From IMG/VR virus record IMGVR_UViG_3300045141_000232, positions 1 to 28,272 of that record: a stretch of DNA of 28,272 nt; one strand, written 5' to 3'. A model generated the notes under the pieces. The model was not told the origin of the DNA. It did no database searches and saw nothing but the letters and a program-made list of their open reading frames with translations. The position numbers were made by a program, and so were the translations under genes. Shown here one piece after another: positions 1,295 through 28,111 of the stretch (positions are counted from its first letter, which is position 1; each line of letters opens with the position of its first letter). This stretch comes from a virus.

Positions 1295-1317
1295 GTGGTT
1301 TTCGGGCCTTATGCCTG

Positions 1318-1348
1318 TAACAGCGGTTCGAATCCGCTAGGCGCCTTG
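1318..1348 (+). other. attP-like site: tRNA 3'-end sequence (repeat copy R9)
   Basis: Bases 1322-1338 form a perfect T-arm (AGCGG, TTCGAAT, CCGCT) followed by AGGCGCC, which matches the T-arm and acceptor 3' strand of a tRNA. No matching 5' half (GGCGCCT) exists nearby, so it is a fragment, not a gene. Phages that integrate into tRNA genes carry such 3' ends as the attP core next to int, and the integrase gene ends only about 80 bases away. The same core recurs, with changes, as R1-R8 at 25.3-27.0 kb. The exact core borders cannot be set without the host attB. Confidence 0.65.
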
Positions 1349-1425
1349 CCTGACGCAACCATGCGGGTTTGCGAGACGGCCTATCGGAATGATTTAACAT
1401 GCCGTCGTCTCACGTGGCGACAGGG

Positions 1426-2550
1426 TCACGGCTGGCGCCTCGCACGCGCGAGCTTCGCCGCAACAGACTCTTTCCGTTTCGTCGACGAGTGCAGGTACAG
1501 CTCGGTCGTGCGGATCGACGCGTGCCCCATCAGCTCCTGGACGCCGTAGATGTCGCCCTCGCTCGCGTCGACCGCGTCGGTCCCGAACGTGTGCCGCGTC
1601 ATGTGCGGCTTGCGGTACTCGACGTTGATGTGGCTCATCAGCCGGGACCACCAGTCGTGGAACCCGCGCTCGAGCATCGGCCGTTCCGGGTACTCCGCGG
1701 TGATCTGCCGGACGCGGCCCTTGTAGGCGCCGGCGACGCGGGCGGGGAACCAGACGTGGTCATCGGGCGCGGGGAGCCGTTCCAGCTTCACGTACGGCTC
1801 GAGCAGGTGCCGTTCCCAGGCGATCCAGAACGGGCCGTGGATCGGGATCACCCGCTGCTTGTCGCCTTTCCCGGTGACGGTGATCTGACGGCGGCCGGGG
1901 TCGACGTCGCGGTTGCGCATCCCTTGCGCCTCCGCTTTGCGGATCCCGGCGTCGAGGAGCAGGTGGGCGCGGACGAGCTCGCGGGGCGGGTCGTCCATGT
2001 AGCGGCTCGCGTCGAGGATCAGCTCGCGCTCGCGCTCGTCGAACACCTGGTAGACGCGTTTCGCTGTTGGCCGTAGCTTCGGCAGCCGCCGGGTCGGGTT
2101 CTTCGCCGACCGCCGGGGCGGGTCCGTCTCGTTGATCGCCCACTCGAGGAACTGGTTTATGTGGGACCGGTGCGTTCGCCACGACGGCTCCGGCACCTCG
2201 TCGAAGTAGAGCGCGAGGTGCTCGTAGGCGATCTCGGCGACGCCGACGCCGGGGGGGAGGTTGACCGCGAGCCGGGCAAGGATGTAGAGCCGCGCCTTCC
2301 GGGTCTTCGGGCTGCCGTGCGACAGCCGGAGCCAGCGGAGGTGCTCGTCGATGTCGGGGCCGAGCGCGGTGTCGAGGTAGCGGTTATCGGCCACGGGATC
2401 CGCCAGGATCGCCTTGGCCTGCGCGAGCGTGAACAGCTGCGTCGTAAGATCGATCGTGCATGGGAGTTGATGCCTCCTGTGCCGAGCCCGGGCCCCGCTC
2501 ATCGGGGCGCCGGGATTTATGTTGTCGGCACGGAGGATACTCCCTGTCAC
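1426..2550 (-). CDS. int: Tyrosine-family integrase
   Basis: A 374-residue tyrosine recombinase for site-specific integration and excision. The N-terminal SAM-like core-binding part lies near residues 60-145, and the catalytic part near 165-360 shows the full set: Arg204 (LLLDAGIRKAE), Lys in the GKGDKQRVIP hairpin, His316-x-x-Arg319 (PHMTRHTFGT), His343 (ELMGHASIRT) and the nucleophile Tyr352 (ELYLHSS). The GTG at 2550 was chosen because it overlaps the stop of the upstream XRE gene as GTGA; an in-frame ATG 16 codons later is the alternative. A perfect AGGAGG further downstream has no in-frame start behind it. The gene sits beside the tRNA-like attP sequence, the usual arrangement for integrases of tRNA-targeting phages. 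It is probably co-expressed with the regulator upstream. Confidence 0.93.
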   Translation of the reverse strand: MTGSILRADNINPGAPMSGARARHRRHQLPCTIDLTTQLFTLAQAKAILADPVADNRYLDTALGPDIDEHLRWLRLSHGSPKTRKARLYILARLAVNLPPGVGVAEIAYEHLALYFDEVPEPSWRTHRSHINQFLEWAINETDPPRRSAKNPTRRLPKLRPTAKRVYQVFDERERELILDASRYMDDPPRELVRAHLLLDAGIRKAEAQGMRNRDVDPGRRQITVTGKGDKQRVIPIHGPFWIAWERHLLEPYVKLERLPAPDDHVWFPARVAGAYKGRVRQITAEYPERPMLERGFHDWWSRLMSHINVEYRKPHMTRHTFGTDAVDASEGDIYGVQELMGHASIRTTELYLHSSTKRKESVAAKLARARRQP

Positions 2551-2798
2551 GGCAGCAGGTCTCCGAACATCAGGTAGGCGGCGCTGGCGCGGCACGCTTT
2601 CGCGACCCGGACGAGGTGGTGGTCGTCGGGGAAGCGTTGCTCGTTCTCCCAGCGGCAGACGGTGGCGTACGTCACCTCGACGGTCTCGGCGAGCTCGCGC
2701 CGGGTCTTGTTGACGGCGAGCCTCGCGGCCCGGATCCGGCGCCCGTATCCGGGGTTCGGTTCGGTCGCGTTTACGGACGCTTCAGCCAGCGTTTCCAT
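2547..2798 (-). CDS. XRE-family HTH regulator (repressor/Cro-like)
   Basis: A small 83-residue protein with one Cro/C1-type helix-turn-helix at about residues 18-70 (IRAARLAVNKTRRELAETVE, then YATVCRWENEQRFP). It lacks the cleavable C-terminal domain of long lambda-type repressors, so it is the size of Cro or of minimal immunity repressors. The ATG at 2798 is preceded by AGGAGGG and GAGAGGGG stretches. It is co-directional with and overlaps int by four bases, while a rightward regulator starts about 200 bases away on the other side; this head-to-head pair with a shared spacer is typical of a lysogeny switch. Whether it is the lysogeny repressor, an excisionase-like controller, or both cannot be told from sequence alone. 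Confidence 0.8.
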   Translation of the reverse strand: METLAEASVNATEPNPGYGRRIRAARLAVNKTRRELAETVEVTYATVCRWENEQRFPDDHHLVRVAKACRASAAYLMFGDLLP

Positions 2799-7913: not shown

Positions 7914-9341
7914 TTAGGGGCCCGGGTCGGGGTCGATGACGAACGGGTCGTTGAGGAAGTTCGCCCGCGGTGAGACATCGAGGCTGAGCTCGACGATCGG
8001 GACGACACCACCGGGGCTGCAGGTGTAGTGGAGCCCTTCGATGTAGAAGTCGGTCCCGGTGCCGGGACCGACGTAGTCGGTGAACCCGCCCCCGCCGGGA
8101 TGACCCGTGAACAGCGTCAGCAGATCGGAGATCTCGGCCTGGCAGAGGAACCCCCATAACGCGTTCGCGTGCGTCTCACCGGGGCGGCGCGACTTGAACA
8201 CCATCCGGCTGATCCGCGGGGCGGGATCCTTGTAGTTGTCGACGTAGTACTGCGCGAACAGCCTGGTCTCGGCCATCGAGTCGTTGTGGGTGTAGAGCCC
8301 GTGAATGGTTTGGAGCTGGTCGAACGTGATCGACCGGAGCCCGTACGCGGCGATCGAGGTGTCGTCTTTGACGTACTGCCCCGCGACGTCGTCTTTGGCG
8401 GGGTCGAGCATCCGCCACTCCGCCCCCTGCCCGACACCCTGCGGAGTCGCGGAGGCGGCGTTGTACAGGTTGTCCTGCCCGTTCGACCATTCCAGCTCCG
8501 CGAGGGGGACGATCCCGTCGGCCCACCCGGAAGGGTCGGCGACGTTGTAGCGGCCGATCCCGTACTCCGCGACGTCGGGGCGGAACCTGGCGAGGCGGCC
8601 GTGGACGGTGACGTGCCCGGTCTTCGACATCCACGCGTTGCTGACCCCGGGGAACTCCCCATCGACAGCGTCGAAAAGGGCGTCGAGGGCGCTGGTGCCG
8701 GGCCCGTAGGCTTTCGGTCCGAACTGGGTGTTCAGCGAGAACACGTCCGTGCCGGATTCGCGGAGCTCGTCGGGCCAGCCGACGTCGCCGAGGATCGCCT
8801 GGACACGGTCGGCCCCGGTCCCCTCCGTCTCGCCGTAAAGGACGTTCCCGGCGGCGAGCGTCGCGAGGGCGGCGCGTTTGTCGGGGTCGGTGAACTCCGC
8901 GAACGGCGGCAGTGTCCCGTCGATCCCGACGCGCAGCTCGGCGCGGGCGAGCATCGCGAACCCGTCGACGAGCTGGAGCTCGAGCTCCATGAATTGGCGG
9001 GTGATGTCGAGCTTGTACTGCCACGACTCGATGAACCCGCGGAACACCAGATACCAGTTGCTGTTGGTGGGGTTCTGCAGCGCGACGGCGGCCTGTTTCC
9101 CCGGCAGGATCTTGTCGTTGTAGGGGCTCGAAGGGTTGGTCGGGTCGAACAGCCCGGCGAGGTCGACGATATGAACGACGGCGGTGCCCGGCCCGGTCTT
9201 GTCGAACTCGGTCGGGCGGCCGCGGTCGACTGTCCAGTCCCGGACACGGCAGCCGGTGAGGGTGTCGATCCGTGTCCACGTCGGGTCGGGCTCCAGGGGC
9301 GGGTCGTCGAGCGCGATCGACACGCCGGGGGGGTCAGCCAC
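7914..9341 (-). CDS. Minor tail protein (distal tail/hub-like)
   Basis: A 475-residue protein directly after the tape measure gene, with its GTG start overlapping the tape measure stop by eight bases. This is the position of distal-tail and hub proteins in siphophages. The early region (GCRVRDWTVDRGRPTEFDKT, then GTAVVHIVDLAGLFDPTNPS, YLVFRGFIESWQYKLDI) has the look of the hub-like minor tail proteins common in actinophages. The middle and C-terminal parts (ALDALFDAVDGEFPG, VTVHGRLARFRPD, IVELSLDVSPR) are beta-rich. No catalytic motif was noticed. It probably forms the ring or hub at the tail tip to which the LamG and repeat-containing proteins attach. Confidence 0.75.
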   Translation of the reverse strand: MADPPGVSIALDDPPLEPDPTWTRIDTLTGCRVRDWTVDRGRPTEFDKTGPGTAVVHIVDLAGLFDPTNPSSPYNDKILPGKQAAVALQNPTNSNWYLVFRGFIESWQYKLDITRQFMELELQLVDGFAMLARAELRVGIDGTLPPFAEFTDPDKRAALATLAAGNVLYGETEGTGADRVQAILGDVGWPDELRESGTDVFSLNTQFGPKAYGPGTSALDALFDAVDGEFPGVSNAWMSKTGHVTVHGRLARFRPDVAEYGIGRYNVADPSGWADGIVPLAELEWSNGQDNLYNAASATPQGVGQGAEWRMLDPAKDDVAGQYVKDDTSIAAYGLRSITFDQLQTIHGLYTHNDSMAETRLFAQYYVDNYKDPAPRISRMVFKSRRPGETHANALWGFLCQAEISDLLTLFTGHPGGGGFTDYVGPGTGTDFYIEGLHYTCSPGGVVPIVELSLDVSPRANFLNDPFVIDPDPGP

Positions 9342-12651: not shown

Positions 12652-13083
12652 TTAGCTCGGGACGGTGCTTGCCCACGCGAACCTCGACCCGGGGGCGGGC
12701 TTGAAGTTCACGGTCATGTCCGACGACGCGTTCAACGCCCCGGCGAGGCCGTTGTAGTCGTACATCGTCGCGGAGCCCCCGAACGTCGGGTTCGTCGCCG
12801 ACGGCGTCCCCGAGGTGGGTTGCACGTAGACGGTGAACACCGACCCGCCCGCGTATAGCGGCTGCAGCGTCGCGTGGACCTTGGCGGCGGCGAAGTCCTG
12901 GCGGAACTGGACGGTGATCGTCTGGTCCGCGAGTCCGGGGAGGTACTCGGTGGTCGCGTTCGGGTTGAACCCGGACACGTCGACCTGGGGCTTCACCTGC
13001 GGGGTGTCCACGTTGAACGCGTGGTCCGACAGGTCGACCCCGTTCACGACGACTTTCGCGTCGGTGAGAAGGAACTTGCTCAT
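12652..13083 (-). CDS. Major tail (tube) protein
   Basis: A 143-residue protein with AAAGAGGT six bases before ATG, and its ATG overlaps the stop of the upstream glycosyltransferase as ATGA. Its opening (FLLTDAKVVVNGVDLSDHAF) and beta-rich body (GLADQTITVQFRQDFAAAKV, GSVFTVYVQPTSG, SSDMTVNFKPAPG) fit the major tail tube proteins of siphophages. It is short compared with many actinophage tube proteins, which often carry an extra Ig-like domain; none is seen here. Tight coupling with two glycosyltransferases makes this protein a plausible glycosylation target. Confidence 0.8.
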   Translation of the reverse strand: MSKFLLTDAKVVVNGVDLSDHAFNVDTPQVKPQVDVSGFNPNATTEYLPGLADQTITVQFRQDFAAAKVHATLQPLYAGGSVFTVYVQPTSGTPSATNPTFGGSATMYDYNGLAGALNASSDMTVNFKPAPGSRFAWASTVPS

Positions 13084-13718
13084 GTTTTGACCTCTTTCTT
13101 GACCAGGGCGCGTACCCGCTCCTGGTATCGCTGTTGGTTGGCTCGTGATGCTGCTTCGGTTTCCTGCGGTGTTCGGGCGGCTTTGGTTGCGCCTTCGCGG
13201 TGGAGGAGGCCGGTGTCGATCTGCCGCAACGTGAACCCGCGGGCACGGGCTTCGAGGCAGAGCAGGTTGTCTGAGTAGTAGGCCGGCTCTTCGAGGCTGG
13301 TGTCGAACCCGCCGAGCTCGAGTAGGTCTTCGCGGAGCCCTGCCAAACACCAGCCGTCGATGTAGGGGTAGACACAGTGGTCGACGATCGCGTGCCCGTC
13401 CGAACGGATCCGGGCGCCGACGAGCACCGAGGGGGCTACGGCGTCGTGTAGCACCTCGAGCCAGCCGTGCTCGGTGGCGCTGATGTCGTTGTTCAGGAAC
13501 ACGACCACGTCGCTGCCGGCGGCCTCGAGGCCCTGGTTGGAGGCTTTGCAGAACCCCAGGTTGTCGTCGTTGCGGATCGCGGCGAACTCCAACGGGGGGC
13601 TGGAGCCGTTGTCGACGATCAGGAGCTCGTCGGGCCACGGGCCCAACTCCAACGCGCGGTCGTAATCGGCCTGCAGCTCGAGGTGGCGGTACCACGGGGT
13701 GACGACGGCGACGGTCAC
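13080..13718 (-). CDS. Family 2-type glycosyltransferase (GT-A fold)
   Basis: A 212-residue protein with classic GT2 features: an opening beta strand (VAVVTPWYRHLEL), the nucleotide-binding VDNGSS at about 35-40, NLGFCKASNQGLEAAGSD at about 53-70, and the metal-binding FLNND at 74-78. Late LAGLREDLLELGGFD resembles the usual GxxE/GGFDE acceptor-side region. The C-terminal 40 residues are basic. It starts at a GTG overlapping the upstream stop (GTGA), and its stop overlaps the major tail ATG (ATGA), so it is translationally tied to virion genes. A role in adding sugar to a virion protein is the simplest inference; modifying the host surface is the alternative. The sugar donor cannot be told. 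Confidence 0.88.
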   Translation of the reverse strand: MTVAVVTPWYRHLELQADYDRALELGPWPDELLIVDNGSSPPLEFAAIRNDDNLGFCKASNQGLEAAGSDVVVFLNNDISATEHGWLEVLHDAVAPSVLVGARIRSDGHAIVDHCVYPYIDGWCLAGLREDLLELGGFDTSLEEPAYYSDNLLCLEARARGFTLRQIDTGLLHREGATKAARTPQETEAASRANQQRYQERVRALVKKEVKT

Positions 13719-14899
13719 GCGAGCACCCGCGCCTCGTGGAGCGGCTTCACTTCACGGGGCCCGTCGAGCGCCTCCAGGGCGGGCTCCCAGTACGCCCGTG
13801 TGACGTTGTCGGCGTCGTAGCGGGCCGCGAACGCGGCGACGGTGTCTTTGAGCTGCTGGTTGCCGCGCTGCTCGTACGCGGCCTCGAGCGCGGCGTGGAT
13901 CGCGCCTATGGACGGGTTGGTGAGCCACGCGTCCATGTGGGCGTCCCACCAGGGGTCGCCGCCGACGAGCCAGCCGCCGCGGGCGAGCTCCGTCATCGCG
14001 GAATGGTCCGAGGCGATCACGGGGACACCGCACGCCTGCGCTTCGAGGATCGGGACACCGAACCCCTCCCCCATCGACGGGCTCAACAGCACGTCGAATG
14101 CTTGGTAGAGGTTCGCGACGTTCTCGGCGGGCCAACCCAGATGGAAGATCGCCGGGGGCGGGTACCTGACCCGGTCGGTGGGGCAGTCGGTCGCGAGCGT
14201 CAGCGTCTCGAGGTTGATCCCGCCGCCCTTCCCCGGCTGCGTCAGGGTGTGCCCGTAAAACCACGCGTCGTCGTGGTCGGCGGCGAACCGTGAGAACGCC
14301 ATCAGCGCCGGCGGGAACGCCTTCCGTGGGAGCGCGGGGTTGCCGCTGTTGGCGGCGACCATCCCGACCAGGAACGCGTCGGCGGGGATCCCGAGCTCCT
14401 CCCGGATCGCGGTCTTGTCGTCGGGGCGGGGATAGAAGACGGTGCGGTCGACCGCGTGAGGGACATAGAGCGGTTCCAGGCCGGCTGAGGTCATGAGCCG
14501 TTCTCCGAACCTCGACATCGCGATCGGCCGCACCTTCTCGTGCGCCAGCACCGCCAGAACCGCGGGCGGCAACGGGTAATGGTCGACGGGCGCCCAGACA
14601 GCCATCCGGAGGTCGGCCGGCCAGTCGTCGGGGCGCAGCACCCACGCGTCGCACAACGCGACCACGTGGTCGGCGCGGAAGTGCTCGGCGTACGTGCCGA
14701 CCGTCCTGTTGCCCCAGTCCGAGTCGGACGGGTAGTAGGTGACGGGCCCGGCCTCCAAACACATCCCCTGGAGGCCGTAGTTGCACGCGACGGCGAGCTC
14801 GTGCCCGAGTGCTTGCAACCGGGGGATGAACAGCCGGGCCTGCTCGCCGTAGCCGGAGCCGACCCCGGGCGGGTTCCCCAACCACAGGATGCGGCTCAC
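13715..14899 (-). CDS. Family 4-type glycosyltransferase (GT-B fold)
   Basis: A 394-residue protein. The N-terminus has a glycine-rich loop (ILWLGNPPGVGSGYGEQARL) and the C-terminal half carries the GT4 EX7E motif (Glu278 and Glu286 in MGEGFGVPILEAQACGVPVI). VYVPHAVD-like and PSMGEGFG segments fit retaining sugar transferases that use nucleotide sugars. The start is the GTG overlapping the tail terminator stop as GTGA; the same frame is open further upstream, but that part is a shadow of the terminator gene. It is followed, again with a GTGA overlap, by the GT2-type gene. The pair between tail terminator and major tail protein suggests stepwise glycan building on tail or capsid protein. Confidence 0.88.
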   Translation of the reverse strand: MSRILWLGNPPGVGSGYGEQARLFIPRLQALGHELAVACNYGLQGMCLEAGPVTYYPSDSDWGNRTVGTYAEHFRADHVVALCDAWVLRPDDWPADLRMAVWAPVDHYPLPPAVLAVLAHEKVRPIAMSRFGERLMTSAGLEPLYVPHAVDRTVFYPRPDDKTAIREELGIPADAFLVGMVAANSGNPALPRKAFPPALMAFSRFAADHDDAWFYGHTLTQPGKGGGINLETLTLATDCPTDRVRYPPPAIFHLGWPAENVANLYQAFDVLLSPSMGEGFGVPILEAQACGVPVIASDHSAMTELARGGWLVGGDPWWDAHMDAWLTNPSIGAIHAALEAAYEQRGNQQLKDTVAAFAARYDADNVTRAYWEPALEALDGPREVKPLHEARVLA

Positions 14900-15354
14900 A
14901 GCAGGATCCTTGTGCGCCACTCGCACCCGACCAAATAGCCCTCGCCGCCGACCGGGGTGTACACGATCACCCCGGACGGGCCCGACGGGAGCAGGTCCGA
15001 GACGCGGCCGCCCAGGGTGCGGTCGGCGATCAAAGCGGCGAACACCGACGTCGACGAGCGCGGGTCCATCAGCTGGAGGAGGAGCTGCTGGGAGGCGTCG
15101 ACGTCGGTGGGGCTGACCCTCGCGCGGACGGTGAACCAGATGTCGCGTTCGGTCCTGGGGCCGTAGTCGGTCTGCTCGCTGAACGGGTCGGCGGGGTAGA
15201 TGTCGACGCACGGCGGCGTCGGGGACAGCACCAGGAACGGCCACACCTGGAGGGCTTCGCCGGCGAGGTCCTCGCTGGCGACCTGGTCGGTGACCTGGTC
15301 CGCGATCGCGTTCACGATCTCGACGAGCGACGCGCCGGCGACGGTCGTGGTCAC
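14896..15354 (-). CDS. Tail terminator protein
   Basis: A 152-residue protein after the head-tail connector and before the tail genes. It has an N-terminal helix (LVEIVNAIADQVTDQVASED) and a pattern of alternating beta strands (ERDIWFTVRARVSPTD, SQQLLLQLMDP) with a late GYLVGCEWRTRILL strand. This is the usual look and place of the protein that caps the tail tube and joins it to the head. The GTG start lies one base after the connector gene's TAG. The family call is by pattern and order. Confidence 0.65.
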   Translation of the reverse strand: MTTTVAGASLVEIVNAIADQVTDQVASEDLAGEALQVWPFLVLSPTPPCVDIYPADPFSEQTDYGPRTERDIWFTVRARVSPTDVDASQQLLLQLMDPRSSTSVFAALIADRTLGGRVSDLLPSGPSGVIVYTPVGGEGYLVGCEWRTRILL

Positions 15355-18664: not shown

Positions 18665-19926
18665 CTGAGTACCCCGCTCGCTATGTCGGAAGGTGTGCTG
18701 TTGTCGAGCCGTTCGGCGTCACGGATCTCGCTGACCGTCAGTGCCGGCTGCCCCGTTGCCGGGTCGACGATCGCGTTGAGGATCTGCGCTGTCTGGGCGC
18801 GTTCGAGGGGTTCGGCGGCGACGTACTCGTCGCGGTTCAGCTCCACGCTCGTCCCCCGCGGTAGCGCCCATTGCGACAGCGCGGCCATGACGTGTTGCGC
18901 TTTGGGGCGGAGGCCGGAGCGCCAGTGCATGTCGAACCACATCGTCACGTTCTTGTAGGTCATCGGGTCCGTGGAGGTGGGGATCCCGACCAGCTCGGAC
19001 GGGACGCCCAACAGGTGCGCGATCCTGCCCTCCGCTCTGTCCAGCAGGGCGGTGAGGGCCATGTCGGCGGGGTTGATCTGCGTCGGTGTCCACGTGATCC
19101 CGCCGCTCAGGACGGCCGGCTCGCCGATCGCCGACAGCCGCGACTGCACCCAGTCGGCCTTCAGCAGCGCCGCCTGGTCGGGGGTCAGCTCCAACGGGTG
19201 CTGGAGGACACCGGTGGGGATCCCGCCGCCGGCGGCGAGCTTCGTCCCGTACTGCAACAGCATCTGCGCCGCCACCATCCGGTAACGCCCGGCTTCCAAC
19301 GGGCCGATCCCGTGCGCGTACCCGACCTGCGACTTGTACCTGACGTGGAGGATCTGGTCGGTTACGTCCTCGCCGCCCATCTCGTACCGCCGCAGGCCGT
19401 CGTCGACCTCGACCGACACCCACCACGGCGGCACCACATGGAACCGGGCGGGCCAGCCCGTCGAGTACCACGCCGTCGCCAACACGAACGCCTCCCCGAC
19501 CGCCTGGTAGTCCCAGAACAGCTGATGCAGGAACTCATCGACGCTTGTGTACTGGTCGGGGTCGGGGTTGTTCAACCAGTCCGCGGACAGCGTCGACGCG
19601 GCGTTCTTCAGATAGGGCGGCATCGTCGACAGCTGTTGCGCGTTGTAGTCGACGCACATCCACGCCGTCTCCGTCAGCGGCGCCACCACCCCACCACTCG
19701 ACCAGTTCGGCGTCGACCACTCCTCTGGCCACCCCGACCACGCAGACGGCGTAACCCGCAGGGGCGGCCAGCCGGGCCCGTCGTTGCCGATACCCGTGTC
19801 GAACAGCACGCCGTGCGGGTCCCCCGGGTTCACGTTCGGCGGCCCCACGCTCCCCGGTGCCGCCGTCACGGGGTCGTTCTCGTTCGGGATCTCGGGCGGC
19901 CGGATCGACCTGCTGAACAGGCCCAT
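18661..19926 (-). CDS. Portal protein, HK97-type
   Basis: A 421-residue portal that starts at the ATG overlapping the terminase stop (TGATG). Features of the phage portal family include the early MGLFSRSIRPP, the middle AWMCVDYNAQQLSTMPPYLK, FLHQLFWDYQAVGEAFVLAT, VPPWWVSVEVDDG, the loop HVRYKSQVGYAHGIGPLEAG and the C-terminal LLGVPSELVGIPTSTDPMTY. It forms the dodecameric ring at the head vertex through which DNA enters, with the terminase encoded directly upstream. Frames further upstream on this strand belong to the terminase gene. Confidence 0.9.
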   Translation of the reverse strand: MGLFSRSIRPPEIPNENDPVTAAPGSVGPPNVNPGDPHGVLFDTGIGNDGPGWPPLRVTPSAWSGWPEEWSTPNWSSGGVVAPLTETAWMCVDYNAQQLSTMPPYLKNAASTLSADWLNNPDPDQYTSVDEFLHQLFWDYQAVGEAFVLATAWYSTGWPARFHVVPPWWVSVEVDDGLRRYEMGGEDVTDQILHVRYKSQVGYAHGIGPLEAGRYRMVAAQMLLQYGTKLAAGGGIPTGVLQHPLELTPDQAALLKADWVQSRLSAIGEPAVLSGGITWTPTQINPADMALTALLDRAEGRIAHLLGVPSELVGIPTSTDPMTYKNVTMWFDMHWRSGLRPKAQHVMAALSQWALPRGTSVELNRDEYVAAEPLERAQTAQILNAIVDPATGQPALTVSEIRDAERLDNSTPSDIASGVLR

Positions 19927-21674
19927 CAGAACACCGCCGGGACAGGCGCGGGTTTGTGGGCGGCGGCGACGGCCCACACCGCTGCCTTGATGACATGCCT
20001 GGGGCCGTCGACGATCATCAGGCCCGTCGCTGCCTCACGGACCACCGTCCGGCTGATCGCGTCGTCGAGCTCGCCCGTGGTCTGGTCGTGAACGATCTGC
20101 CCGCCGGCGGCCAAATCCCGGAACACGGAGAGACCGACCCTCGTCAGGGTCGCTCCCACCGGCTGCGGCGGCGGCGCCATCCCGGACGGGATCCGGTCGA
20201 TCATGCTCGCGCCGACGAGCAGCTGCCCGATCGGCCGGTGCAACGCGAGCCGCTGCACCTCGAAGATCGCGGTGTCCCAGTCCGGCGGGCTCCACGCCTC
20301 CACCTCGAGCCGCCCGTCTGGGAGTTTCCCGACCGCGGCGACCGCAGCTCCGCGGCCCCACTCGTCCTCGACCGCGACCCACACCGGCCCGAGCGAGCAC
20401 ACGCCCGGCTCGGTCAGCTCCTCCCACAGGCCGCCCGGCAGCAGCGGCTGCGGGCCCGCGCTCCAGACCGGCTCCGTCGGCCACTGATTCAGCCACTGCG
20501 ACCGGAACGACGCGACCGGGTCAGGCTCCGTCGGGTCACGATACGCGCCAGCCCGGACCCTCTCCAGTGTTTTCCTGATCGTGCGTTCCCGCCGCGGCGT
20601 CCAGTGCGCCGACGCCTGCCGCCACCCCGCCATGTCGTCGAGCTCCGCCGCCGGCGCCGCCGACCACTCGAGCAGCAGCGTCCCATCAGGAGCCTCGAGC
20701 TCGTCGAGCGCCAACGCGCGCCGCGCCAGCATCAGCGACGTCGCCAACCGGTGCGCCGTCGACACCAGCAAAAGTTGCGGCTGCGCCCGCTCGACCATCG
20801 TCGGCTCCAAACCCTCCTCGATCACCGCCGGCTTCACCGCCCACGCCTCATCAGCAGCAGCCAGCGACGTCGACCAGCCGTACATCGATTTCGTCGAGTG
20901 GATCAGCCACCGCGACTCGGTCTCGAGCAGCTTGATCTCCTCTTTGCCGTTCGCCTCCTTCACCGCGTACACCTCCGGCAGACCCTTCGCCCACAACCTG
21001 GCCGGCAGCTGCACCTCCATGCAGATCCGCAGGTCCTTCCCGGTATGCACGACGTTCTGCGGCTCGCCGAACCGGCCCGCCTGGTGGAGCCGCCACAACA
21101 TCAGCTCCCGCAGAAGCCACGACTTCCCGAGCTGCCTCGGCGTCGACAACAGGACCGTGTCCCACAACAGCTCGCCCCGATCGTCGACCTCGAGCATCCT
21201 GGTCGCGGCCAGCTTCTGCCACCACCGCAACGGCCTCCCCTCACGCCTCTCAGCCTCAGCCACGAACTCCATCCCGAGCGAACCCGCCGCCCTAGGATCC
21301 GGGACCGACATCAACCGCGGCCACGTCGCATCAGCCGGCGGCGGCAACAACCCCTCGAGCCACGGAACCCGCCACCGCTGATCCGCCACCGGCAAACCGT
21401 CACGCTCGGGCTCCCGCTCCAGCATCGTCGCCTGCTGCCACCGCGACCGGCCAGCCGTAGCCCGGTTACACGCCCGGTGCTCCGGCCCCGAATACCGGCT
21501 CTTGTCCCCGTCAACGTGCCCCAAATCCCACGGCTCGCCCGGACGGATCAGCTCACCGCAACGAACACACCGGACGCTCCCGCCGAGAACCAGCGGCGCC
21601 AGACCCTCCCGGATCCGCTGATGCTGGCCGCCGTAGCCCCGAACCGTCGTCGCTGCGATGACCTGCCCGCCCAT
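19926..21674 (-). CDS. terL: HNH endonuclease-large terminase fusion
   Basis: A single 582-residue frame. Residues about 12-78 form an HNH nuclease-like zinc domain: Cys36-x2-Cys39 (VRCVRCGEL), His53 (WDLGHVDGD) and His66/Cys69/Asn70 (SGPEHRACNRATAG). The rest is a large terminase: Walker A-like STPRQLGKS at 177-185, Walker B LAAADEAW with Asp275-Glu276, coupling motif LLLVSTAH at 301-308, and a C-terminal RNase H-like nuclease region starting near VWVAVEDEWGRG and including TGELDDAISR. It drives ATP-dependent packaging into the portal. HNH proteins encoded beside terminase are known parts of packaging machines of cos phages; here the domain is joined to TerL. No small terminase subunit was recognised. 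ATG at 21674 is used; its ribosome-binding site is weak. Confidence 0.88.
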   Translation of the reverse strand: MGGQVIAATTVRGYGGQHQRIREGLAPLVLGGSVRCVRCGELIRPGEPWDLGHVDGDKSRYSGPEHRACNRATAGRSRWQQATMLEREPERDGLPVADQRWRVPWLEGLLPPPADATWPRLMSVPDPRAAGSLGMEFVAEAERREGRPLRWWQKLAATRMLEVDDRGELLWDTVLLSTPRQLGKSWLLRELMLWRLHQAGRFGEPQNVVHTGKDLRICMEVQLPARLWAKGLPEVYAVKEANGKEEIKLLETESRWLIHSTKSMYGWSTSLAAADEAWAVKPAVIEEGLEPTMVERAQPQLLLVSTAHRLATSLMLARRALALDELEAPDGTLLLEWSAAPAAELDDMAGWRQASAHWTPRRERTIRKTLERVRAGAYRDPTEPDPVASFRSQWLNQWPTEPVWSAGPQPLLPGGLWEELTEPGVCSLGPVWVAVEDEWGRGAAVAAVGKLPDGRLEVEAWSPPDWDTAIFEVQRLALHRPIGQLLVGASMIDRIPSGMAPPPQPVGATLTRVGLSVFRDLAAGGQIVHDQTTGELDDAISRTVVREAATGLMIVDGPRHVIKAAVWAVAAAHKPAPVPAVF

Positions 21675-24041: not shown

Positions 24042-24725
24042 TCAGAACGGGACCGCTTGGGCCTGGACAGCTTCGATGATCAGGTCGTACTTGTCCTTCG
24101 GGATCTCCGTGGTCGACTCGACACCCGCGATGTCGAGCACGATCTGGCGTAGGAGGTCCTCACCGACGGTGTTCTCGGTCGCGACCGCCCACAACCTCTT
24201 GCGTTGCGGGTTCGTGATCACAGGAGCAGCCTCCCGCGAAGCGGGAGGCTGCTCCTGTGCGTCCGCGACGGTGTCAGCGTCCCCGCGGAGCCCGTCCTTC
24301 GCCCACAAGTCGAGGGCGACCCCGAACCGCATCGCGGCGTTCCGGATCGCGTCCGAGATGCACTCCTTCGCGTTCTTCCCGTCACCCACCCCGACCCTGG
24401 TCACGCCGCACACCGTGAGGCGGATCCACAGGTTCCCCGCCCGATCCAATGCTGGTAATCCGTCCGGTGTGAGTGCTAACGGCTCCCACACCCAGGCCGG
24501 ATCAACCTGCAACAACCTGTCGGTGACAGCGGCGTGGCCGACGTAATCCAACATGACGCCGCCCTTCGGGAGCTGCCCGATCAGGTGCTTCGGGAACGGC
24601 TCCCGTAGCTTCTTCGCGTTCGCGGCTGACATCCTGGTGTCGGCCGGCGCCTGGCGCGCCACCGCCGGGGGTCCCTTCTCAGGCAACGGTGGCGCCGGCG
24701 CCGGATCTACGGGCTGCTCGGTCAT
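24042..24725 (-). CDS. Rad52-like single-strand annealing protein
   Basis: A 227-residue protein with GGTGAG before its ATG. Residues about 43-142 match the Rad52/Rad22-type annealing core: FPKHLIGQLPKGGVMLDYVG, WVWEPLA, LTVCGVTRVGVGDGKNAKEC and ISDAIRNAAMRFGVALDLWA. The N-terminus is a flexible Pro/Ala region. A low-complexity linker (about 148-170) leads to a helical C-terminal domain (NPQRKRLWAVATEN, PKDKYDLIIEAVQ) seen in many phage annealing and replication proteins. It would pair complementary single strands during phage recombination. Linker residues 156-169 are encoded by a perfect 19-bp inverted repeat. No separate exonuclease partner was found. Confidence 0.82.
   Translation of the reverse strand: MTEQPVDPAPAPPLPEKGPPAVARQAPADTRMSAANAKKLREPFPKHLIGQLPKGGVMLDYVGHAAVTDRLLQVDPAWVWEPLALTPDGLPALDRAGNLWIRLTVCGVTRVGVGDGKNAKECISDAIRNAAMRFGVALDLWAKDGLRGDADTVADAQEQPPASREAAPVITNPQRKRLWAVATENTVGEDLLRQIVLDIAGVESTTEIPKDKYDLIIEAVQAQAVPF
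24219..24259. repeat. Perfect 19-bp hairpin inside the Rad52-like gene
   Basis: CACAGGAGCAGCCTCCCGC (24219-24237), loop GAA, and its exact reverse complement (24241-24259). The centre reads GCGAAGC, a sequence known to form an unusually stable DNA mini-hairpin. It lies in the linker region between the two domains and stays in frame. Confidence 0.9.
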
Positions 24726-25133: not shown

Positions 25134-25256
25134 TTATGGCTTGTTTTCATGCCGCCTGTCCCAGTGGAAGAGGAACAACCCGAGCATGTCGTTCAGCTTC
25201 GCGGTGAAGATGACGCCGGCTCCGAACCCGACGACGATGCAAAGGGCAGCGGTCAT
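25134..25256 (-). CDS. 40-residue membrane protein
   Basis: An ATG overlapping the stop of the 24-codon gene as ATGA opens a 40-residue protein with one hydrophobic helix (MTAALCIVVGFGAGVIFTAK) and an amphipathic, charged end (LNDMLGLFLFHWDRRHENKP). Single-pass topology with a cytoplasmic charged tail is likely. It lies upstream of the Rpf-like gene, so it could be a holin-like or antiholin partner in a second lysis-type cluster, or unrelated. No match is recognised. Confidence 0.6.
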   Translation of the reverse strand: MTAALCIVVGFGAGVIFTAKLNDMLGLFLFHWDRRHENKP

Positions 25257-25327
25257 CGCAGCAGGCACCACCAGCAGATGAACAGGCCGAGCGCAACACC
25301 GGCCGCGAGCTCGATCAGGGCGGTCAC
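25253..25327 (-). CDS. 24-residue membrane peptide
   Basis: A GTG placed inside repeat R1 opens a 24-codon frame (VTALIELAAGVALGLFICWW then CLLR), a single hydrophobic helix with a positive end, finishing in an ATGA overlap with the 40-residue membrane protein. The start codon sits at the same place in R1 as the start of the 92-residue gene sits in R4, which supports it. The function is unknown; the pair of mini membrane proteins resembles small holin/antiholin pairs in size only. Confidence 0.5.
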   Translation of the reverse strand: MTALIELAAGVALGLFICWWCLLR

Positions 25328-25360
25328 CGTTTACACCAGTTCGAGTCCGCAAGTCTCATC
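25326..25360 (-). repeat. Cassette-boundary repeat R1
   Basis: Core GTTCGAGTCCGCAAGTC (25339-25355, plus strand), 12 of 17 matches to R6, but its left flank CACCGTTTACACCAGTTC is identical to that of R4. The stop of the 52-residue gene and the start of the 24-residue gene lie at its two edges. Confidence 0.75.
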
Positions 25361-25514
25361 GCGCCCACCGCCGGATCTGCTCGACGCGGAACCTGACCAT
25401 CACGCGGAACGGCGGTCGCTGATCGCGGCGAGCACGCCGCCGATCCACACGGCGCATCCGCCATAGATAGACCCACCGCCAATGCCGGAACTCGGTGCGC
25501 CACGGTCGCCTCAC
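25356..25514 (-). CDS. 52-residue Arg/Trp-rich protein
   Basis: A GTG at the edge of R2 opens a 52-codon frame that stops (TGA) at the edge of R1, so the frame fits one repeat-to-repeat unit. The protein is very basic and aromatic (TEFRHWRWVYLWRMRRVDRR, then FRVMVRFRVEQIRRWAR), which suggests nucleic acid or membrane-surface binding. A second frame in the same DNA encodes a hydrophobic stretch (YGGCAVWIGGVLAAIS) ending at TGATG, so a two-peptide reading cannot be excluded. No family is recognised. Confidence 0.45.
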   Translation of the reverse strand: MRRPWRTEFRHWRWVYLWRMRRVDRRRARRDQRPPFRVMVRFRVEQIRRWAR

Positions 25515-25555
25515 GGCCGTTCACACCAGTTCGGATCCGCTAGACCGGTCACCGC
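25515..25555 (-). repeat. Cassette-boundary repeat R2
   Basis: Core GTTCGGATCCGCTAGAC (25529-25545), 15 of 17 matches to R6; left flank CCGTTCACACCA and right flank CCGGTCACCG match R4 closely. It lies between the 39- and 52-residue genes. Confidence 0.85.
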
Positions 25556-25668
25556 TTGTCCTTCGGAGTGCCGAACCAGTAGAACGCGAACAGGACCAGG
25601 AACGGGGCTACAGGGACGAGCGAACCGAGCACCAATGGCCACTCCGAAGTGGCGAACGACCCGGTCAC
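25549..25668 (-). CDS. 39-residue membrane protein
   Basis: A GTG preceded by GGGGAG opens a 39-codon frame with a hydrophobic helix (PLVLGSLVPVAPFLVLFAFY) and a short positive tail (WFGTPKDKR), stopping inside R2. One membrane-spanning helix is expected. It lies between repeats R3 and R2. No relative is recognised; the size and topology are like several other mini-genes in this array. Confidence 0.55.
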   Translation of the reverse strand: MTGSFATSEWPLVLGSLVPVAPFLVLFAFYWFGTPKDKR

Positions 25669-25682
25669 GCTCCCCGCCTTGA

Positions 25683-25716
25683 ACGCCAGTACGGATCCGC
25701 TAGGCGGGTCACGGCT
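25683..25716 (-). repeat. Cassette-boundary repeat R3
   Basis: Core GTACGGATCCGCTAGGC (25689-25705), 15 of 17 matches to R6; right flank GGGTCACGGC as in R4, left flank diverged. It holds the stop codon of the 92-residue gene. Confidence 0.85.
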
Positions 25717-25987
25717 TCACCGGCTGCGGCAACCGTGAAAGGGCGGCAGCTACGCACTTATCGATCTGGTTTTCCAGGTGCTGGATTGTCGCCCACTTCC
25801 CGCCGGGGAAAGCATCGTCGGGTAGTTGTCTGAGAATGAAAAATAGGAGCGCCGCAGTGTCAGCAGCGATGATCGAGTCACCCGATGGTGAGCCGTTGAG
25901 TTCTTCGACCAGTTGTTTGATCCACGGCTTTGAGACGGGCGTGAACCACTGCGAATCGACATAGTCGAGCGAGAGATCCTCTAGCAC
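25709..25987 (-). CDS. 92-residue hypothetical protein in repeat-bounded unit
   Basis: A GTG inside R4 starts, and a TGA inside R3 ends, this gene, so it fills one unit exactly. The protein looks soluble and mainly helical (FTPVSKPWIKQLVEELNG, IIAADTAALLFFILRQLPDD, IQHLENQIDKCVAAALSRLP). Codon use is less GC-extreme than in neighbouring genes (for example TCATCG and GAAAAATAG-like AT-rich stretches around 25840), which hints at recent acquisition. No family is recognised. Confidence 0.65.
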   Translation of the reverse strand: MLEDLSLDYVDSQWFTPVSKPWIKQLVEELNGSPSGDSIIAADTAALLFFILRQLPDDAFPGGKWATIQHLENQIDKCVAAALSRLPQPVKP

Positions 25988-26026
25988 CGTTTACACCAGT
26001 TCTGATCCGCTGGGCCGGTCACGGCT
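25986..26026 (-). repeat. Cassette-boundary repeat R4
   Basis: Core GTTCTGATCCGCTGGGC (25999-26015), 16 of 17 matches to R6, with the fullest flanks: CACCGTTTACACCA to the left and CCGGTCACGGC to the right. The stop of the 79-residue gene and the start of the 92-residue gene are at its edges. Confidence 0.88.
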
Positions 26027-26258
26027 TCGCCTTCGGGTGCTCGAACCGCACACGCTCGGGGTGCCGAAGCAGCGGCGCGATCCCGTCGATGGTCTTGCAC
26101 GAGCCGTCGCTACGGGACCGTTTGCAGAAGCACGTGATCGTGGTCCACTTCGACCGGTAGCCACGTACGGCGAGAAGCAGCGATCTCCCGCCGGTCTTCG
26201 AGTACGGATTCGGCGGCGTCAGGAACGTCACCCACGGCTTCGGCTTCTCGGCGCTCAC
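26019..26258 (-). CDS. 79-residue basic hypothetical protein
   Basis: A GTG-started gene that ends with TGA inside R4. The protein is basic, with Lys/Pro-rich ends (SAEKPKPWVTFLTPPNPYSK, FEHPKAKP) and a middle containing TTITCFCKRSRSDGSCKTID, three Cys that might bind metal. It looks like a small single-domain protein; nothing is recognised. Its last two codons before the stop (AAG CCG TGA) are the same as in the 92-residue gene, since both ends lie inside copies of the same repeat. Confidence 0.6.
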   Translation of the reverse strand: MSAEKPKPWVTFLTPPNPYSKTGGRSLLLAVRGYRSKWTTITCFCKRSRSDGSCKTIDGIAPLLRHPERVRFEHPKAKP

Positions 26259-26572
26259 GCTGACCGCCGTTTAGGCTGGTTAGTGGCACACAAGGTGGGG
26301 CGGGTCTGTATCCGTCCGGCTCTTTCACGCACGCCTAGCGTGCGATCCCCGAGCGCGGCTCCTGCCGCTGGCATCCCGCCCCTGCGACAAACGTTCACGG
26401 CCGTTGAAGCCAGCGAGCCGCACGCGGGTGTATCCGAGGCTTCGGGCCGCGTGCCCCCTCGGGAGTCCCGCGGTTGCCGCGACGTGATCTGCGCCGCGCC
26501 CGCTTCACCGCGTAGCGGCTCGCTCGCTTCCCGCCTCGAACGCTCGTTCTGATCCGCTAGGCGCGGCGTCAT
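26255..26572 (-). CDS. Doubtful 105-codon frame over a structured GC-rich segment
   Basis: The frame starts at an ATG overlapping the 29-residue gene's stop (ATGA) and ends with a GTGA overlap into the 79-residue gene, the same coupling style as real genes here. However, it runs straight through repeats R6 and R5, its product is Arg/Ala/Ser/Thr/Pro/Gly-rich with no hydrophobic core, and the DNA holds a large inverted repeat (26406-26426 with 26509-26530). It may equally be a non-coding structured RNA or a decayed segment. Nothing else is seen in this stretch. Confidence 0.25.
   Translation of the reverse strand: MTPRLADQNERSRREASEPLRGEAGAAQITSRQPRDSRGGTRPEASDTPACGSLASTAVNVCRRGGMPAAGAALGDRTLGVRERAGRIQTRPTLCATNQPKRRSA
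26264..26285 (-). repeat. Degenerate boundary repeat R5 (left half only)
   Basis: CCGCCGTTTAGGCTGGTTAG matches the left part of R8 (CCGCCGTTTAGCCTGGTTCT), then diverges; the GATCCGCTAGGC part is missing. Confidence 0.55.
26406..26530. repeat. Large inverted repeat, possible structured RNA
   Basis: The 21-base arm at 26406-26426 and the 22-base arm at 26509-26530 (starting CGCGTAGCGGCTCGCTCGCT) are reverse complements with one mismatch and one extra base. The 82-base loop holds smaller GC-rich hairpins such as GCGG-TT-GCCGC. No coding sense is clear on the plus strand. Confidence 0.55.
26536..26571 (-). repeat. Cassette-boundary repeat R6
   Basis: Core GTTCTGATCCGCTAGGC (26546-26562), the copy that best represents the consensus. 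The stop of the 29-residue membrane gene lies at its right edge; left flank CGAACGCTC is shared only with R7 (CGCTC). Confidence 0.88.
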
Positions 26573-26658
26573 CTGAGCCACCACGCGATGGCCGAAGTCG
26601 CCATGCCAAGGAGACCGCAGATGAAGATGAAAAGCATGATGCGGTCGCCCTGGTTCAC
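26569..26658 (-). CDS. 29-residue membrane peptide
   Basis: A GTG-started frame between R7 and R6 encoding a polar start (MNQGDRI) and a hydrophobic helix (MLFIFICGLLGMATSAIAWW) with a final Leu-Arg. One membrane pass is expected. Its TGA lies at the edge of R6, as for other leftward genes of the array. The function is unknown. Confidence 0.55.
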   Translation of the reverse strand: MNQGDRIMLFIFICGLLGMATSAIAWWLR

Positions 26659-26665
26659 GGCTGAC

Positions 26666-26700
26666 ACCGCTCGTTCTGACCTGCTAGGCCGACGCTGCCG
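26666..26700 (-). repeat. Cassette-boundary repeat R7
   Basis: Core GTTCTGACCTGCTAGGC (26673-26689), 15 of 17 matches to R6. It lies between a leftward gene and a rightward gene, so it is upstream of both. Confidence 0.82.
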
Positions 26701-26714
26701 CCATACTGCTGCGC

Positions 26715-26909
26715 ATGGCGAAGAGGAAGCTCGACAGCCTTCTGCTGCAGAACGTCGACCTGACGCAGCAGTTCACCGAGGCGTTCCCCGACGCGCCGCA
26801 GGTCGAAATCGAACTGATCGGCTACGAGGAACCGACCGACGAGGAACTGATCCTCGGTACGGCCGCGATGATGCGAGCCGCTGCGGCCGACCAGGCGCCG
26901 AAGAACTAG
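26715..26909 (+). CDS. 64-residue acidic protein, opposite strand to the array
   Basis: The plus-strand frame has clear coding character (GC at third positions, good codon mix) while the opposite frame is a shadow. The protein has a basic start (MAKRKLDSLLLQNVDLTQQF) and an acidic body (VEIELIGYEEPTDEELILGT, then AAMMRAAAADQAPKN), like a small partner-binding protein. There is no ribosome-binding site; a possible -10 (CATACT, 26703-26708) lies seven bases before ATG, which would fit a leaderless transcript, common in actinobacteria. It fills the R7-R8 interval in reverse orientation to the other units. The function is unknown. Confidence 0.65.
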   Translation: MAKRKLDSLLLQNVDLTQQFTEAFPDAPQVEIELIGYEEPTDEELILGTAAMMRAAAADQAPKN

Positions 26910-26910
26910 C

Positions 26911-26947
26911 CGCCGTTTAGCCTGGTTCTGTTCCGCTAGGCGATTCA
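26911..26947 (-). repeat. Cassette-boundary repeat R8
   Basis: Core GTTCTGTTCCGCTAGGC (26925-26941), 16 of 17 matches to R6; left flank CCGCCGTTTAGCCTG as in R5. It follows the stop of the rightward gene by one base and holds the TGA of a leftward frame at its right edge. Confidence 0.85.
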
Positions 26948-27031
26948 TGCGAGGGCGACCGCCTGGCGCACCAGGTCGCGGCCCGTCGGCCGGAGAAGCG
27001 CGAACATCTCATCGCCCTCACGCCTTGACAC
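26945..27031 (-). CDS. Possible 20-28-residue leftward gene at the array head
   Basis: A frame that stops with TGA at the edge of R8, just as other leftward genes stop at their repeats. The ATG at 27007, with GAGGGCG upstream, gives 20 residues (MFALLRPTGRDLVRQAVALA); the GTG at 27031 adds eight more but overlaps the rightward promoter's -35. The product would be one amphipathic helix. Support is the stop-repeat geometry only. Confidence 0.3.
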   Translation of the reverse strand: MSRREGDEMFALLRPTGRDLVRQAVALA

Positions 27032-27053
27032 CGTGACAGGCGGTGTGTACTGT
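27025..27053 (+). promoter_or_regulatory. Sigma-70-type promoter for the ParB-like operon
   Basis: TTGACA (27025-27030) is a perfect -35 box; after 17 bases comes TACTGT (27048-27053), a good -10. Transcription would begin near 27060, directly before the structured leader. It is the best promoter seen in the window. Confidence 0.8.
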
Positions 27054-27067
27054 CCGCCTAACACCAA

Positions 27068-27120
27068 GCGACGGCGGCCTACCTTAGTGAGAGGACGCGG
27101 CCGCCGTCGCACTAAGGAGG
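27068..27120 (+). promoter_or_regulatory. Structured leader (possible pseudoknot) over the Shine-Dalgarno
   Basis: Two perfect inverted pairs interlock in the order a-b-a'-b': GCGACGGCGGCC (27068-27079) with GGCCGCCGTCGC (27099-27110), and CCTTAGTG (27082-27089) with CACTAAGG (27110-27117). This is the order of an H-type pseudoknot, and b' runs into the AGGAGG site (27115-27120) of the next gene. Folding would hide the site, so it may control translation; as DNA it could be a protein-binding dyad. Confidence 0.6.
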
Positions 27121-27130
27121 ATAGCCAGTA

Positions 27131-28111
27131 ATGGCCCCAACACGTGACAGCGTCAAGCATGACGCCATCACTCGGATCCTCGTCGGGATCTTGGACGAGT
27201 TCGATCTCGAGTACACCGAGGCGCCGCAGTACTCGCTCGCGAACCTGAAGCGCTCGCAGGTACGGCAGGAGAAGAACGTCGCCCCGGCGGAAACCGTGCA
27301 ATGGCTTCGTGCCAAGCTGCAGGCCGGCGACCCGCTGCCCGCGATCGTGGCGACCGCAGATGGCGAGATCATCGACGGCAACACCCGCAACGCCGCCTAC
27401 ATGAAGGAGAAGCGGCCGACCGGTTACGTGATCACGACCACCAAGACGGCCGAACAGATCGGCCCGGCGCTGATGAAGATCCTCGGTCAGCGGATGAACG
27501 ATCACGGTAAGCGCCTCTCCAAGGCCGAGACCGAGTCGAGCATGCGCGTGCTGATCAGCGAAGGCGCGACCACCGAGCGGATCAAGCAGCACCTCTCGGT
27601 GACGGAGTCCCAGGTCGGCAACCTGCGGGCAGTCATGAAGGGCGAGGCGAAGCTCGCCGAGCTGGGCGTGGCGCCGAACAGCTTCAAGACCGCGCACATG
27701 AAGGCGCTCGGCCGCATCGACCTGCTCGCAAAGCCGTTCGCCGAGCTCGTCAACCTCGCCCACGACGCCGGGTTGAGTAGCGGCGACCTGAACAACATCG
27801 CCAAGCGCGTGAAGATGGAGACGTCCGAGGACGCGCAGCTCAAGCTGCTCGCGGACGAGCGCTCGGCGCTCGGTGACCAGATCAAGCAGCACAAGGAGAC
27901 AGGCAACGGGAAGCCGCCGGCGGCCCGGCGCGCGAAGCAGTCCCTGAGCCAGTTCCTCGCGGTCACCACGTCGCCGGAGCTGACGGTCGAGCGGGCCCCG
28001 GAACGGATGGAGGAGCAGCTCGCCGTCCTGCGGCGCTCGCAGGATCGGCTCGAGGCGATGATCGAAGCGCAGCAGCAGGCGGCTGTCGAAGCCGGGGTGG
28101 TCCTGCTGTGA
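27131..28111 (+). CDS. ParB-like domain protein
   Basis: A 326-residue protein with AGGAGG ten bases before ATG, expressed from the promoter at 27025. A ParB/Srx-like domain lies at about residues 35-105: PAETVQWLRAKLQAGDPLP, then IVATADGEIIDGNTRNAAYM with the G-N-T-R box. A helical DNA-binding-like middle follows (AETESSMRVLISEGATTERI, KQHLSVTESQVGNLRAVMKG), then a C-terminal coiled coil (PERMEEQLAVLRRSQDRLEA). No ParA partner is present, so it more likely acts as a phage regulator or ParB-type nuclease-like protein than in classic partition. Its stop overlaps the next start as GTGA. Confidence 0.82.
   Translation: MAPTRDSVKHDAITRILVGILDEFDLEYTEAPQYSLANLKRSQVRQEKNVAPAETVQWLRAKLQAGDPLPAIVATADGEIIDGNTRNAAYMKEKRPTGYVITTTKTAEQIGPALMKILGQRMNDHGKRLSKAETESSMRVLISEGATTERIKQHLSVTESQVGNLRAVMKGEAKLAELGVAPNSFKTAHMKALGRIDLLAKPFAELVNLAHDAGLSSGDLNNIAKRVKMETSEDAQLKLLADERSALGDQIKQHKETGNGKPPAARRAKQSLSQFLAVTTSPELTVERAPERMEEQLAVLRRSQDRLEAMIEAQQQAAVEAGVVLL

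Follow-up and report, generated by a model that had tools for sequence, protein, structure and literature searches.

A translated repeat family with ordered subtypes at accessory-gene borders in small, probably actinobacterial phages

Introduction

How mosaic phages cleanly swap accessory genes at their borders while leaving polycistronic expression intact is an old question. In lambdoid phages, for example in the ninR region, short conserved border sequences have been proposed as targets at which phage recombinases carry out exchange. The promoter early stem-loops (PeSLs) of T4-type phages are non-coding elements that combine a promoter with a terminator stem-loop. These elements recur at gene borders in the hyperplastic region and are credited with modular gene shuffling (Arbiol 2010 and Comeau 2014, as cited in PMC4503421). 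In cluster K mycobacteriophages, the start-associated sequence (SAS) is a 13-bp RBS-like element, GGGATAGGAGCCC, lying a few bases upstream of starts (PMC3203893). Integrons provide a precedent for coupling between cassettes in ORF-11 of attI1 and the short ORFs within attC (PMC8876359).

The repeat family described here resembles the lambdoid boundary or linker sequences in being a short, conserved sequence that borders exchanged genes and may serve as a target of homologous exchange, but, unlike those linkers, a single family recurs at many borders, in positional classes and with its own micro-ORF. In contrast to PeSLs, the present elements are translated and occur as ordered subtypes, and the stem-loop of a PeSL is lacking, as array copies do not fold. 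The SAS likewise repeats, with a mostly uniform orientation, where small non-structural genes of unrelated content start; the comparison is only a loose analogy. The suggestion of a start-associated sequence, made in a first-pass annotation of this DNA, did not hold, as the element is ∼45 bp long, has a different sequence, is not RBS-like or confined to a place upstream of starts, is translated, and sometimes ends a gene or lies between 3′ ends, whereas SAS is not known from gene ends. The likeness to integrons is an array of unrelated genes with shared borders, an adjacent tyrosine recombinase gene and a short border ORF that couples translation. The locus differs from an integron in its lack of attC-like folding, in its fixed subtype order, in its recombinase assignments (PF00589 and PHROG phage integrase), which give no sign of IntI, and in that the recombinase clade changes while the elements stay.

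Results and Discussion

The DNA analysed (the window) is an entire IMG/VR virus record of 28,272 bp, perhaps a fragment. Its capsid, terminase and integrase share ∼24-53% protein identity with mycobacteriophage and other actinophage relatives, which makes an actinobacterial host likely; a search for a host genome carrying the prophage found none. The integrase was assigned both to PF00589 and to the PHROG phage integrase group. The window comes from a small temperate phage belonging to an uncultured phage family, with hosts probably among the Actinobacteria.

Leftward early genes begin at ∼27,030. Here, a 17-mer core matched six array positions (25529, 25689, 25999, 26546, 26673 and 26925), all six on the minus strand. 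Together with a match at 1326-1342, the whole window held seven matches where 0.4 were expected, and seven were reached in 0 of 100 shuffles. The repeat array reported in the first-pass annotation was thus confirmed and proved larger than described, the element extending over ∼45 bp rather than 17 bp (Table 1). Start-to-start spacing of the copies is 127-547 bp, or ∼100-300 bp when half copies are included. Of the eight copies first described, R1 is full-length but diverged and R5 is a right half alone; a second right half and a further copy beside the integrase gene were also present. Some borders are free of any element. The 64-aa gene runs rightward (third-position GC of 0.88, compared with 0.67 for the leftward ORF opposing it), which places R8 where the ends of two genes converge instead of at the start of a gene.

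Table 1. Repeat copies, array genes and recombination genes of the window
Feature	Position	Strand	Basis or remark
Integrase-proximal palindromic copy, probable attP core	1312..1349	-	T-arm geometry, core common to G018
Tyrosine integrase gene	1426..2595	-	PF00589
Single-strand annealing protein gene	24042..24725	-	phrog_3290, E 1e-50
24-aa membrane peptide gene, beyond last element	25253..25327	-	ORF
R1, W-class micro-ORF MRLADSNWCKR-stop	25324..25359	-	profile match, sequence
52-aa Arg-rich gene	25356..25514	-	ORF
R2, W-class micro-ORF MTGLADPNWCERP-stop	25511..25552	-	profile match
39-aa membrane gene, common to G005 between different elements	25549..25668	-	sequence comparison
R3, W-class (WR) micro-ORF MTRLADPYWRSRRGA-stop	25665..25712	-	profile match
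92-aa gene	25709..25987	-	ORF
R4, W-class micro-ORF MTGPADQNWCKRC-stop	25981..26022	-	profile match
79-aa gene	26019..26258	-	GC3 0.88
R5 right half (..TNQPKRRSA-stop)	26255..26287	-	sequence
Right-half remnant (..WLQRP-stop)	26390..26416	-	repeat family D14 and reading of sequence
R6, E-class (MTPRLADQNERSRREA...)	26525..26572	-	39/39 identical to G004 element
Small membrane peptide gene	26569..26658	-	GC3 0.80
R7, diverged E-class (..VGLAGQNERCQP-stop), stop overlaps start of next leftward gene	26655..26696	-	sequence
64-aa gene between R7 and R8	26715..26909	+	GC3 0.88
R8, Q-class (MNRLAEQNQAKRR...), array entry element	26904..26948	-	profile match, sequence

A profile phased by codon was run on related IMG/VR phage contigs with reversed sequence as the control. 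The 16 contigs yielded 67 array copies, the control yielded none and, apart from the integrase-proximal copies, matches were confined to arrays. On the repeat strand, the consensus L-[AP]-[DE]-x-N-x-x-x-R appeared in a single frame, which was open in 67/67 copies, with stops in 58 and 36 copies in the other two frames. Most copies are micro-ORFs of 11-16 codons, such as R2, which reads GTG ACC GGT CTA GCG GAT CCG AAC TGG TGT GAA CGG CCG TGA. The micro-ORF start overlaps the upstream stop (GTGA/ATGA), the stop in most copies overlaps the start of the following gene, and many copies read GTGA...GTGA at their two ends. The element ORF ended in [AG]TGA in 56 of 67 copies, compared with 44% of 277 ordinary genes (p = 3e-11). 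Start overlaps were counted in 47/67 copies, a figure that is partly built in because the profile was seeded on copies beginning GTGACC; this does not apply to the stop overlaps. In W-class phages, including that of the window, the element is mostly a separate micro-ORF, whereas in P-class phages (e.g. G008 and G019) it forms the N-terminus of a gene, and in other places it is joined to the C-terminal end of the gene before it. Strong Shine-Dalgarno sites are few ahead of array genes. The repeat had been described as filling the intergenic space, which was not borne out given that it is a translated micro-ORF. This coding nature, the integrase-adjacent copy and the conserved subtype order emerged only on follow-up.

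Codon usage within the elements differs from that of window genes. CTA occupies 43/62 element Leu positions, GAT 47/60 Asp positions and AGT 22/23 Ser positions, whereas in the genes of the window these codons make up 1.4%, 10.5% and 2.8%, respectively, of those for the amino acid in question. The retention of codons that this GC-rich phage otherwise seldom uses implies that the DNA is constrained besides the reading frame. Of the 59 occurrences of the 8-mer CTAGCGGA in the contigs, 52 fall inside elements. A conserved functional peptide was not favoured, in that third codon positions were not the most variable and several residue positions differed freely; selection is therefore probably not for a specific peptide. 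The coding frame did not stand out when synonymous and nonsynonymous differences among copies were counted (values of 0.46, 0.53 and 0.12 for the three frames). Hairpin folding was not detected in array copies (mean fold z of -0.14, n = 67), and attC-like hairpins were rejected on the same value.

The overlaps on both sides of the element, its single orientation and the scarcity of strong Shine-Dalgarno sites would be expected of an expression element only, that is, a translational coupler or leader needed by each small gene and spread by duplication, with any role in exchange being incidental. As a complete explanation this is unlikely: constraint on peptide coding is weak but that on DNA is strong, neither R8 nor the fused terminal copies stand before a start in like manner, and homologous genes without an element occur in G013 and G018.

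The order of subtypes along the array is fixed, being Q followed by E and finally W, or Q followed by P. Q came first in 10/10 phages having a Q element (chance 6e-8). Among six W-class phages, element distance correlated with rank difference (r = 0.495, 0/2000 permutations); as these phages share ancestry, the test shows that the order is preserved and not how often it arose. The genes between the elements, by contrast, are almost all different across phages. They encode methyltransferases, Zn-ribbon proteins and membrane proteins, and MT-A70, N6_N4 and Dam methyltransferase genes lie in or beside the arrays of other contigs. The W-class arrays contain at least one inverted gene.

The proposal that the repeat is a border sequence allowing cassette exchange was largely supported by three comparisons. 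G001 and G004 have integrase-region DNA that is 93% identical and downstream regions that are 91% identical, but their array genes are unrelated. Within a class, elements of phages with unrelated flanking genes match at 98-100% across 49-54 bp, a stretch equal to the element, and can be fully identical over exactly 49 bp; this identity between phages could instead reflect strong selection at the DNA level. The window and G005 have the 39-aa membrane gene in common (86% identity over 194 bp, from element to element), with the adjoining element halves swapped. The right halves of the flanking elements differ between G000 and G005; exchange may thus sometimes take place at gene starts rather than inside the element. 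Among near-identical phages, no cassette exchange was observed.

On balance, we favour, with somewhat better than even confidence, the interpretation that the locus is a hypervariable array of accessory genes and that the elements, as its fixed scaffold, are translated recombination linkers, by means of which these genes are swapped without breaking translational coupling. The elements would act as patches of shared homology where incoming phage or prophage DNA recombines, with a single gene or several in a row being exchanged from one element to another. The micro-ORF would then pass ribosomes from gene to gene by termination-reinitiation, whatever gene had been inserted. One family of elements with ordered subtypes appears to be both homology patch and translated coupler, separating genes that include several DNA methyltransferases.

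One palindromic copy follows the integrase gene in most contigs, with AGCGG-N7-CCGCT in most. The palindrome has GCCTAGCGG in common with the array copies and, in one clade, ATTCGAAC too. On the plus strand, the copy in the window reads as a tRNA T-arm, AGCGG-TTCGAAT-CCGCT, followed by AGGCGCC, and this tRNA-like core is also found in G018, a phage with an integrase of only 33% identity. In one integrase clade the palindrome spacer forms a perfect tRNA T-arm, whereas other clades have a different spacer; the T-arm palindrome of that clade is probably a tRNA-type attP, judging from its sequence. A host tRNA matching the candidate attP would be expected to carry AGCGGTTCGAATCCGCTAGGCGCC. G003, G005 and G010 have another tRNA- or tmRNA-like sequence beside the integrase, and the G005 integrase is unrelated, yet the array elements are the same. 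The array is therefore related to attP in sequence without following attP identity, and integrase and attP as the sole driver of exchange were weakened as a candidate.

Several further observations were made near the integrase-proximal site. The 11-mer AACCATGCGGG, a candidate arm-type integrase site, occurs in exact or near-exact form, direct or inverted, at -78 and -15 from that site in G001, G004 and G006 and at -18 in the window, G013 and G019. A block of ∼110 nt adjoins the site, just before or after it, in L134 (8087-8195) and the G008 contig (∼14725-14830); it is 82% conserved between phages that are otherwise diverged and has no Rfam match. In the G003 contig, a sequence like a tmRNA 3′ end follows the integrase near 9341 and is likely a separate attP. 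A site-precise junction in L134 was considered and dropped, as the alignment break falls before the palindrome.

The arrangement of integrase, palindromic copy and array, in this order and the same orientation in most contigs, raises the question of an integron-like platform, in which the elements would be half-sites of the phage tyrosine integrase derived from attP. Translatable half-sites would have arisen from integrase and attP, with cassettes inserted or excised next to the integrase-proximal site and genes captured into ordered slots beside attP. The sequence in common between palindrome and array copies, the constant arms and varying spacers of the palindrome (as in crossover sites), the nearby candidate arm-type 11-mer and the ending of G001/G004/G006 homology at the integrase-proximal site are all consistent with such a scheme. 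However, the array elements are the same in phages that differ beside the integrase (G003, G005 and G010), array copies have no second arm, do not fold and have spacers that mismatch the proximal site, and ordered subtypes are unlike freely shuffled cassettes. We consider this reading quite unlikely. The elements may have an integrase origin, but for present-day exchange an annealing protein seems a likelier agent than the integrase.

A selfish mobile micro-repeat, with gene overlaps (GTGA/ATGA) as its insertion sites and a duplication of these four bases on insertion, would account for the GTGA...GTGA ends and for homologous genes both with and without an element, but is very improbable given that profile matches fall in arrays (integrase-proximal copies excepted), that subtype order is conserved, that no filled/empty pair was seen in which both neighbours are conserved, and that no transposase was recognised in the partly annotated arrays.

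If the elements are recombination linkers, the agent of exchange is likely, though with less certainty, the RecT/SSAP annealing protein that the phage itself encodes a short way downstream. An annealing protein (SSAP/RecT-like) was detected by profile downstream of the array in seven contigs (G000, G001, G003, G007, G008, G013 and G019) and was not identified in G002, G005, G006, G009, G010, G011, G014, G017 or G018, only a minority of which were searched; as a sign of recombinase-dependent exchange, the downstream genes are circumstantial. Redbeta requires ∼30 bp (PMC3945230), so a linker of 45-50 bp would suit as a natural substrate. The locus offers a defined system, in that element, annealing protein and integrase could each be removed to learn which drives exchange.

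The element had no convincing match in 50,697 phage records, and two element queries found no match among known phages. Matches of 29-30 nt between Brevundimonas phages and one element query (E = 3) were taken as chance, as were the two exact-pattern matches in bacterial genomes, from Krumholzibacteriota (a single weak profile match) and Saccharibacteria (no profile match). No Rfam family was matched in the window, L102, L134 or L089. The sequence of the element can serve as a handle by which to gather the hypervariable accessory genes of uncultured phages.

Elsewhere in the window, the large terminase ORF (19926-21674) is a fusion in which an HNH endonuclease domain (phrog_1808) lies N-terminal to the terminase part, and two glycosyltransferase-like ORFs, recognised by reading the sequence alone, lie inside the structural gene block (13080-15244). 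A gene for a ParB-like protein is present at the left end of the record (19-1245), and the right-end ORF (27131-28111) has a DGNTRNAAY motif and was read as ParB-like, with no Pfam or PHROG match. If the genome is circular, both ParB-like ORFs fall between integrase and array. Where this rightward ParB-like gene and the leftward array diverge (27033-27131), the DNA has boxes resembling TTGACA/TACTGT, the inverted repeat GGCGG-N10-CCGCC and AAGGAGG as a strong Shine-Dalgarno sequence, and looks like a regulated early promoter.
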